33,041 bases of DNA from a virus. Of this stretch, positions 180 through 32,172 are shown in pieces (within the stretch, counting starts at the first letter, position 1; each line of letters starts with the position of its first letter). Both the position numbers and the translations under genes were made by a program. The notes under the pieces are model-generated. The model was given only the letters and a program-made list of their open reading frames with translations, was not told where the DNA came from and ran no database searches. The stretch covers positions 1 to 33,041 of the IMG/VR virus record IMGVR_UViG_3300047317_000373, one strand, 5' to 3'.

Positions 180-545
180 CTACTTCTGCGGGCCGACGGA
201 GCACCCGTACTGCGTGCCGCCGGCGTGAAGGACACCGCCGATGTCATGGACCTGGGCGAGCTCGACGGGCGCGGTGTAGGTCCGCCGGCCGGTGCTCACC
301 TGGTCGTCGTGCCGGTAGGTCTGGTCCGCGGTCGCGTGGGTGATGAGCTCCCCGGCGACGGTCGTGACCACCGTCCACGACATGGAGCCGCCTTTGTCCT
401 GGTAGGTGATGCCGCATTGCGGGTCGCCTGCCGCATCGAAGGCGTGCGAGCCGGCGGGTTTGGGCGGCGGCGTCGAGTCGTTTCCGTTACTGGAGCAGGC
501 GGCGGTCAGCAGGATGGCGGCGACGGGCAGGACGATGCGACGCAT
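180..545 (-). CDS. Small secreted lipoprotein, unknown function
   Basis: The 121-residue protein starts with a classic lipoprotein signal: two arginines, a hydrophobic stretch and lipobox LTAAC with Cys17 as the predicted lipidated residue. A Ser/Pro-rich linker follows. The mature part (about residue 35 onward) is a compact globular region with two cysteines (in PQCGITY and QYGCSVG) that could form a disulfide outside the membrane. No enzyme motif is recognised. It lies downstream of the HNH lipoprotein on the same strand, so both may be surface proteins of one leftward unit. The ribosome-binding site (GAGGGGG) is buried in a 10-bp hairpin at 548-573. Small lipoproteins carried by actinophages are sometimes superinfection-exclusion factors, but nothing here shows that role. 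Confidence 0.75.
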   Translation of the reverse strand: MRRIVLPVAAILLTAACSSNGNDSTPPPKPAGSHAFDAAGDPQCGITYQDKGGSMSWTVVTTVAGELITHATADQTYRHDDQVSTGRRTYTAPVELAQVHDIGGVLHAGGTQYGCSVGPQK

Positions 546-1424: not shown

Positions 1425-1643
1425 CTACGGGGCTTGGCCTTCGTGTTCTTCCCGGGTCTGGGTGTGCCCGTTGATCCTGAGGCAGATCTTGCGGGCGCTC
1501 TCGTGGTTGATCTCGGCCCATGTGCCGAGCTCGCGGAAGGTATGGCCATCGAGGCGGGCATCGGCGATGGCCTTCTCGACCGCGCGGGCTGCTTTGTTGG
1601 CCGTGGCGACGGTGCGCTTGAGTTGCTTCTCCCAGTCGGTCAT
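1425..1643 (-). CDS. Small probable HTH DNA-binding protein
   Basis: A 72-residue protein. Residues 1-32 form a charged helix. Residues 33-58 (FRELGTWAEINHESARKICL) look like a helix-turn-helix in which the second helix (HESARKICLRI) would contact DNA. It is the first gene on the leftward side of the intergenic region with three inverted repeats (1668-1748), which makes it a candidate regulator of that region; this is inference from position. No enzymatic motif. Alternative: a small phage accessory protein with a helical domain that does not bind DNA. Confidence 0.65.
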   Translation of the reverse strand: MTDWEKQLKRTVATANKAARAVEKAIADARLDGHTFRELGTWAEINHESARKICLRINGHTQTREEHEGQAP

Positions 1644-1667
1644 GACGGCATGGTCTCACGGCGATCC

Positions 1668-1748
1668 GTCTATTCGGTAGTCGAGTTCTGTCTAATCTGT
1701 AGACAAGAGTGGAGCTTTGATGGGACCGTAGTTGTCTAGAAGTTAGAC
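1668..1748. promoter_or_regulatory. Three phased inverted repeats (operator array)
   Basis: Three copies of GTCTA-N5-TAGAC lie in the divergent intergenic region. Copy 1 (1668-1682) has one mismatch (TAGTC). Copies 2 (1690-1704) and 3 (1734-1748) are perfect. Centres at 1675, 1697 and 1741 are 22 and 44 bp apart, about two and four helical turns, so all three face the same side of the DNA. This is the expected design for a dimeric repressor controlling both the leftward gene (start 1643) and the rightward gene (start 1763). The half-site resembles the GTCTA boxes of GntR-type regulators, but the binding protein is not identified. No further copy was noticed elsewhere in the window. Confidence 0.8.
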
Positions 1749-1762
1749 GCAAGGGGGACCCG

Positions 1763-2149
1763 ATGATCCGCAAGCTTCGTGCCATCCGCCGCAGCATCGC
1801 CGCCGCACTCCGCATTAGCCGGCCCGTCGCTTACGCCACCCTCAACGGCCAGATCGGCGCCCAGCTCGCCGACGGACGGCTCATCCGCACCGGCGACCTG
1901 CTGGACCGCCTCGGCGCCGACGACCTCCCCGACGGACAGCGCGCCTGGTTCGGCCGTCATGTAGCGAAGGCCTACCGGGCGATGCACCTCGGCGAAGACG
2001 CGCCGCGCGCCTGGGTGCAGCACCGCACCACCGGCCACTGGATTCAGGTCTACGTGTACGCGCCGAACGACCCCGCCCTGTACGCCGGACTTCGTACCTA
2101 CAAGGGCACGCGCCACCTCGTCGCCGTCGAGCTCTCGGAGGCCGCCTGA
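1763..2149 (+). CDS. Hypothetical phage protein, first gene after operator array
   Basis: A 128-residue protein starting at ATG with AAGGGGGA (1750-1757) as ribosome-binding site. The N terminus (about 1-35) is basic and helical (RKLRAIRRSIAAALR), possibly nucleic-acid binding. The rest has Trp/Tyr-containing beta-like segments (WVQHRTTGHWIQVYVY) and ends SEAA. I do not recognise the family. Being the first rightward gene beyond the three inverted repeats, it probably belongs to the regulated transcript. Its TGA stop is in the same frame as the coding-like acidic stretch that follows. Confidence 0.65.
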   Translation: MIRKLRAIRRSIAAALRISRPVAYATLNGQIGAQLADGRLIRTGDLLDRLGADDLPDGQRAWFGRHVAKAYRAMHLGEDAPRAWVQHRTTGHWIQVYVYAPNDPALYAGLRTYKGTRHLVAVELSEAA

Positions 2150-4977: not shown

Positions 4978-5208
4978 GTGGTCGACCTGACCGCAGACCT
5001 ACAGACCGCCCTCTGGAACGTCGCCGAAGCCGCCGAGGCTGCCGGAGTCGCCCCGAACGTTGTCCACAACTGGCGCTACCGCGGCAGGCTTTCGGTTGCC
5101 GGGCGGGACCGCAACGGGCGTCCTCTCTTCCGTGCGATCGACGTGATTCGCGCGGAGAAGGCCACTCGCGAACGGGCCCGCCGGGTCTATCTACCCCAGG
5201 CTGCCTGA
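4978..5208 (+). CDS. MerR-like small helix-turn-helix protein
   Basis: A 76-residue protein. GTG 4978 is chosen because GGGAGG (4965-4970) is 7 nt upstream and because an upstream start would run through the terminator at 4910-4943. Residues about 12-55 fit a MerR/excisionase-type winged HTH: a helix (WNVAEAAEAAG), a turn, a recognition helix (APNVVHNWRYRG), a wing with RNGRPLFRA, and IDVIRAE. The C terminus is basic. Likely DNA-binding in regulation, excision or packaging. It is preceded by a terminator and followed by two long hairpins, so it forms its own small unit. Confidence 0.75.
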   Translation: MVDLTADLQTALWNVAEAAEAAGVAPNVVHNWRYRGRLSVAGRDRNGRPLFRAIDVIRAEKATRERARRVYLPQAA

Positions 5209-31428: not shown

Positions 31429-32172
31429 TCACTCGTGTTCGGAGTGCCGGCGCCACCGCTTGACGGTGCTCGCGCCGATGCCGAGTTGCGTTGCCGCTGT
31501 CCGGCTCGACAGATGCCGTGTCGCGTCGATCGCTGCCGCCATCGACTCGAACCCAGCCGCCTGCGCCCTGACTTCCATGGCGGCGCGACGGGCCTGCTGA
31601 GCGGCCGGGAGGGTACGGCGGGCGCCGACGGCTCGCGCTGCCCGCACGGCTGGCAAGTCGTTCGTATCAGCGCGGCCATCGGCGGAGCGACGGGACAATT
31701 CCTCCTGGGGGAGCGCAGCGGCTCGCATCCGGTCGATGAGCTTCGGGTCCTCGGCCATCGCGGCAGTCCGGGCCTGGGACAGGGCGGCGCGTACCCCGGT
31801 GGCCATGAGCGCGGTGGTGGCCGGCAGGCGGTGTTCGGCGCGATACTCGGCGGCCGTCATGTCGTGTGCACGGGCTAGGTGTGGACCGAGGGAGCGGAAG
31901 CGCCGGTCGCAGGAGAGGCATGTCACCAGACCGTCGGCATCAGCACCAGCTGGCCGCTGGGAGCGCATTTCACCGGGGCGAGCTACGGCTCGCAGCGCCT
32001 CCAGCTCGTACAGCAGTGCCCGCCCTCTCACTCGGCATGCCACCGGATTGGGCCAACGTCCCCGCTGCTGCTGCATAACGACCTTGAGGCTGGACCGCGC
32101 GTAGCCGAGAAGCGGCTCGGCCTCCCGCCGAGTGACCAGGCGGATGGCCGAGTCGTCGCGGGTGGCGCTCAC
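31429..32172 (-). CDS. Ros/MucR-like zinc-finger DNA-binding protein
   Basis: A 247-residue protein from GTG (32172), overlapping the stop of the next upstream gene by 4 nt. Three likely DNA-binding parts are seen. Residues about 12-66 look like an HTH (RLVTRREAEPLLGYARSSLK) with a wing-like strand. Residues 82-120 are the Ros/MucR zinc finger: Cys85-x2-Cys88-x9-His98-x4-His103, then MTAAEYRAEHRLP. The C-terminal HTH is LSSRTAATQLGIGASTVKRW. Ros/MucR proteins are best known as transcription regulators of proteobacteria; in actinophages such proteins are probably regulators of phage genes. Last gene of the leftward operon. Confidence 0.78.
   Translation of the reverse strand: MSATRDDSAIRLVTRREAEPLLGYARSSLKVVMQQQRGRWPNPVACRVRGRALLYELEALRAVARPGEMRSQRPAGADADGLVTCLSCDRRFRSLGPHLARAHDMTAAEYRAEHRLPATTALMATGVRAALSQARTAAMAEDPKLIDRMRAAALPQEELSRRSADGRADTNDLPAVRAARAVGARRTLPAAQQARRAAMEVRAQAAGFESMAAAIDATRHLSSRTAATQLGIGASTVKRWRRHSEHE

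Follow-up and report, generated by a model that had tools for sequence, protein, structure and literature searches.

In the OR region of phage lambda, CI binds at OR1–OR3, three palindromic operators located between the divergent promoters PRM and PR, with one weaker operator lying near the promoter of the repressor. The lambda cI mRNA is leaderless (PMC4488713). In the telomere phage PY54 the cI and cro genes are likewise divergent, their mRNAs are leaderless and their operators are closely placed, although CI and Cro recognise partly different sites (PMC4488713). Of the primary transcripts of S. coelicolor, 21% are leaderless mRNAs, and the -10 consensus in this species is TANNNT (PMC4895711).

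We analysed an IMG/VR virus contig of 33,041 bp (referred to here, at its full length, as the window), in which three sites of the form GTCTA-N5-TAGAC are located between a leftward gene encoding a 72-residue helix-turn-helix (HTH) protein and a rightward gene encoding a protein of 128 residues. This locus is highly likely to be a repressor switch that regulates its own gene and heads the packaging/structural operon of a prophage.

Predicted operators and promoters of the control region

The features of the locus are as follows, P_R and P_L being the predicted rightward and leftward promoters and O1 to O3 the three sites.

1425-1643, minus strand: gene for the 72-residue HTH protein, the proposed repressor; predicted to be leaderless
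1650-1658, minus strand: predicted extended -10 of P_L, TGA-GACCAT, 6 nt ahead of the first codon of the HTH gene, so that a leaderless transcript is expected
1668-1682, palindrome: O1, GTCTATTCGGTAGTC, one mismatch to GTCTA-N5-TAGAC; a putatively weakened operator at about -25 to -39 of P_L
1690-1704, palindrome: O2, GTCTAATCTGTAGAC, a perfect GTCTA-N5-TAGAC; its right half, TAGAC, forms the core of the predicted P_R -35
1700-1705, plus strand: predicted -35 hexamer of P_R, TAGACA
1724-1729, plus strand: predicted -10 hexamer of P_R, GACCGT, a weak match to TANNNT; most relatives have CATGCT, CATTCT or TATTCT
1734-1748, palindrome: O3, GTCTAGAAGTTAGAC, a perfect GTCTA-N5-TAGAC, 4 bp past the -10 and over the putative start point (about 1736)
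1763-2149, plus strand: first gene of the rightward operon, 128 residues, belonging to no known family; also found behind other regulator modules
1763-31307, plus strand: continuous rightward operon of about 29.5 kb, comprising small genes, a methyltransferase, terminase large subunit, portal, capsid (major head protein), tape measure, endolysin and holin

The centres of the sites are 22 bp (O1–O2) and 44 bp (O2–O3) apart. A search of the full record for further copies, which had been set beforehand as a test, returned only these three sites at up to one mismatch in all 33,041 bp. Shuffled versions of the window gave a mean of 0.15 matches and none of the 100 shuffles reached three, so the array of repeats between divergent genes described by the first-pass annotation is real.

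Alignment of 17 loci encoding relatives of the HTH protein showed hardly any invariant columns other than those of the operator half-sites, the P_L block and the start codon; the operator spacers and flanks vary. O2 and O3 have no mismatch in any of the 17 loci. O1, which lies 26-33 nt from the HTH start codon, has exactly one mismatch in every case, and this is reached by various routes (GTCTG, GTCTT, TAGCC, TAGTC). A weak O1 is nevertheless not universal, since one further locus (L214) reverses the quality of the sites, O1 being perfect and O2 degenerate.

The P_L block, TGN-NANNNT, is present 5-8 nt before the ATG of the HTH gene in 19/19 loci, its end lying 6-7 nt ahead of the start codon, compared with 4/386 background genes, and is a predicted extended -10 promoter for a leaderless HTH mRNA. 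Set against the actinobacterial leaderless -10 (TANNNT-like, ending 6-7 nt before the AUG), P_L has the expected geometry in 19/19 loci and retains A2 and T6, and T1 is absent. Reading the conserved GTGAGAC as a Shine-Dalgarno sequence is less likely, as two loci (L004 and L005) lose GAG yet keep TGN-NANNNT.

For the rightward promoter, the right half of O2 reads TAGACR in all 18 loci compared and is followed, after a spacer of 17 or 18 bp, by a hexamer NANNNT with A2 and T6 conserved. The same geometry is found in L214 and L215, neither of which was used to find it. O3 begins 3-7 bp past the -10, mostly 6, and three loci (L009, L026 and L028) have a fourth site that adjoins O3 and contains the -10 TATTCT. 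A single site lies over both -35 regions in the distant locus L069. The window's own P_R -10 is poor, and its control region yields no promoter in a generic sigma-70 scan. Taken across the loci, the layout is that of a predicted repressible promoter, P_R, with its -35 and its start point both beneath operators.

The first-pass annotation had proposed that equal spacing by whole helical turns organises the array, through cooperative binding of a repressor. The distances of 22 and 44 bp in the window agree with this proposal, as does an O1–O2 distance of 22-24 bp in nearly all loci. However, O1–O2 is 35 bp in one clade, and O2–O3 ranges from 42 to 46 bp across loci and follows the promoter spacer: where the gap between the -10 and O3 is 6, a spacer of 17 gives an O2–O3 distance of 45 bp and a spacer of 18 gives 46 bp. 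With such a range O2–O3 is not kept to whole turns, and equal spacing does not survive as an organising principle. Site spacing appears to be set by promoter geometry, helical phasing not being conserved, and it is unlikely that cooperative binding in helical phase fixes it.

The same positions bear on whether the 72-residue protein might activate, rather than repress, the rightward operon. In favour of activation, divergent transcription is a feature of many activator/target pairs, and O2 is located at the -35 of P_R. O3, however, lies over the start point and the fourth site surrounds the -10 in three loci, positions that would be expected to block polymerase, and it is very unlikely that the protein is an activator.

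Linkage of the sites to the HTH gene

Relatives were searched for with the 72-residue protein sequence alone, the sites not being used. The first nine relatives in viral contigs all have three sites upstream of the HTH gene. The array is likewise present in the relatives found later whose upstream region is complete, among them five in Streptomyces genomes. It precedes every stand-alone relative found in phages or prophages (the 17 aligned loci and later ones), these loci being related by descent and hence not fully independent. The array is present at L214 and L215 (about 80 bits). The gene of a 167-residue chromosomal relative in Streptomyces (L201:1471-1971, 35.6 bits) is preceded by one perfect site which, spaced as in the other loci, lies 27 nt from the start codon. 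This longer protein also has a putative leaderless promoter upstream and the same HTH. Relatives scoring 33 bits or less, which are without the NHE motif, have no site upstream. The HTH domain is also found at the C-terminus of longer phage proteins (L036:5700-6213, GIY-YIG-like by eye, and L233:1550-2200); no site or operator accompanies these fused forms.

The rightward gene differs between loci, and the sites and the HTH gene remain together. In loci that have the 128-residue gene but no HTH gene (L014-L018 and L239), GTCTA sites are missing and different repeats take their place, in several cases with another small regulator. Streptomyces genomes of 8-10 Mb contain the exact pair once each, with 0-1 stray sites, and a reversed control pattern occurs 3-10 times in such genomes. 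Loss of the sites in related phages, or many random copies elsewhere, had been named beforehand as grounds for abandoning the idea of a control switch. Neither was encountered: the sites are kept in relatives and stray copies are scarce, and the reading of the array as a conserved control switch is borne out.

The first-pass annotation had listed both the 72-residue protein and a MerR-like protein (4978-5208) as candidate binders. Because the sites accompany the HTH gene and not the rightward gene, because the pair is unique in the genomes, and because a homologue of the MerR-like protein is found in only 4 of 13 module carriers, the binder is very probably the 72-residue protein; co-occurrence of site and gene favours the first candidate, and the distribution of the second speaks against it. 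Binding by some other protein, whether host-encoded or the MerR-like one, is highly improbable. In favour of such a binder, the MerR-like gene does belong to the P_R operon; against it, the sites are not scattered across host genomes and their presence tracks the HTH gene as far as the distant chromosomal relative.

A confident AlphaFold2 model of the 72-residue protein (pLDDT 93.8) contains helices at 3-31, 36-43, 47-58 and 64-68, giving a long N-terminal helix (3-31) followed by an HTH (36-43 and 47-58). Residues N46, H47, E48 and R51 (NHExxR), where the second HTH helix begins, are unchanged even in the most distant site carriers. Searches of Pfam, PHROGs, NCBIfam and the PDB returned no significant sequence or fold match, and no function could be assigned from Pfam, PHROGs or NCBIfam; the best weak Pfam match is HTH_38 (E 0.0048). 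With tblastn, the GenBank phage and plasmid collections covered here gave no relative in any isolated phage or plasmid. The Streptomyces phages Picard, Mojorita and Raleigh contain a 31-bp match (E 0.1), which we attribute to chance. The 72-residue protein most likely represents an unnamed prophage repressor family, now with a predicted operator, promoters and a single target locus.

GTCTA-N5-TAGAC is also found in or beside replication-initiator-like genes (RepA_N, Phage_rep_O, HTH_36/DnaD-like) of unrelated phages, in many cases with 3-6 copies at 22-24 bp (L041, L047, L051, L053, L056, L058, L065, L070, L071, L074 and others). These initiator-linked arrays are probably origin iterons that share the word by convergence. 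Although the palindrome and its spacing there recall the window, we give almost no credence to a replication origin or partition iterons at the window locus, which has only three sites at uneven intervals, promoter elements conserved in register with them, a constant linkage to a small HTH gene and no adjoining initiator gene (the genes at 1425-2149 match no initiator family), and the shared word looks convergent, a scan with a control palindrome, which is even commoner in such arrays, showing that they are not special to GTCTA-N5-TAGAC.

Proposed mechanism and the operon under P_R

In the autoregulated switch that we propose, a dimer of the 72-residue protein would bind each palindrome. By covering the -35 at O2 and the start point at O3, the protein would exclude RNA polymerase from P_R, and at moderate or low repressor dose this occlusion would silence the virion, or late, operon in the lysogen. 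At higher dose the protein would also occupy the weaker O1, in the -35 region of P_L, and so reduce expression of its own gene. If the protein were lost, P_R would be freed and virion production would follow.

P_R points towards the terminase where the latter is clearly placed (G001, G002, G006, G009, G010, G013 and L020-L022), and in L029 and L031 it points towards a terminase of another type. Two exceptions were observed: in G004 the terminase match is on the strand opposite to P_R, and in the distant L069 the terminase is on the HTH strand. The matches in Streptomyces genomes place the module in prophages of that genus.

Several other features were observed around the switch. Downstream of the HTH gene, and on the same minus strand, are genes for two predicted lipoproteins (window 180-545 and 634-1320), the second with an HNH-like stretch; in the lysogen they may be co-expressed with the HTH gene. 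A ROS/MUCR domain protein (window 31429-32172, minus strand, E 7.7e-10) is possibly a second regulator of the phage. FtsK/SpoIIIE-like genes are located a few kb past the HTH gene, and facing it, in some relatives (L028:8237-10438, L031:8002-10107, G005 and G007). The contig L012/L236 (IMGVR_UViG_3300046543_000354) is identical to the window in the 128-residue gene and the terminase, and stops at the first codons of the 128-residue gene, so that its assembly breaks right at the control region.

Possible cassette exchange and comparison with known systems

The slot before the 128-residue gene is occupied in other contigs by other small regulators with repeats of their own (L018:4880-5005, L239:880-1080, L015:1100-1232 and L016:4850-5005). 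For example, L018 has a ribbon-helix-helix-like gene and three GGTGTACGTACACC palindromes, the imperfect copy being the one nearest its own regulator gene, and L239 has another small HTH gene and a terminase 78% identical to that of the window. Both modules hold the same position, divergent from the same 128-residue gene, but their regulator and operator sequences are unrelated to those of the window. Because related contigs have unrelated modules in the same slot, cassette exchange at this position is suggested. It is a real possibility, though somewhat less likely than not, that the NHE-type 72-residue protein founds a new minimal family of prophage repressors gating the virion operon directly, and that related phages swap unrelated, self-contained, dose-sensing repressor/operator cassettes at this slot, ahead of shared late genes, with a resulting change of immunity type. 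For a little-known group of Streptomyces prophages, the locus would be the first element controlling lysis and lysogeny that can be put to the test, and the HTH-operator module could find use in Streptomyces as a small orthogonal switch. Unrelated cassettes in one slot make the evolution of immunity types in these phages directly testable.

No comparable late-operon repressor of Streptomyces phages was found in the open literature searched. A MerR-type system, in which a regulator of that type is linked to the sites, does not describe a module with such a homologue in 4/13 carriers. The origin iterons of RepA_N and Phage_rep_O genes share the GTCTA-N5-TAGAC word and a spacing of about 22 bp with the window, but lie in or beside initiator genes, which the neighbours at 1425-2149 do not resemble, are without divergent promoters and belong with proteins of another fold family. 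The cI/cro region of PY54 has divergent regulators, leaderless mRNAs and closely placed operators, as found or predicted for the window, but there two proteins, CI and Cro, act at partly different sites, where the window has a single small protein and one site in three copies (PMC4488713).

The likeness to lambda OR extends to three palindromic operators between divergent promoters, a putatively leaderless repressor gene and a putatively weaker operator near the repressor's own promoter. In the window, copies of one operator are found between divergent (predicted) promoters, one of which serves the repressor gene. The operators may be graded in strength, O1 having a single mismatch in 17/17 aligned loci and L214 showing the reverse. 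The putative repressor, in contrast, is an unrelated 72-residue HTH protein consisting of a long helix and an HTH, without the visible C-terminal domain for oligomerisation (dimerisation) or cleavage that characterises CI-like repressors; no Cro-like partner came to light in the comparisons made. The window differs further from lambda OR in that a half-site of O2 doubles as the predicted -35, and in that P_R heads a packaging/structural operon.
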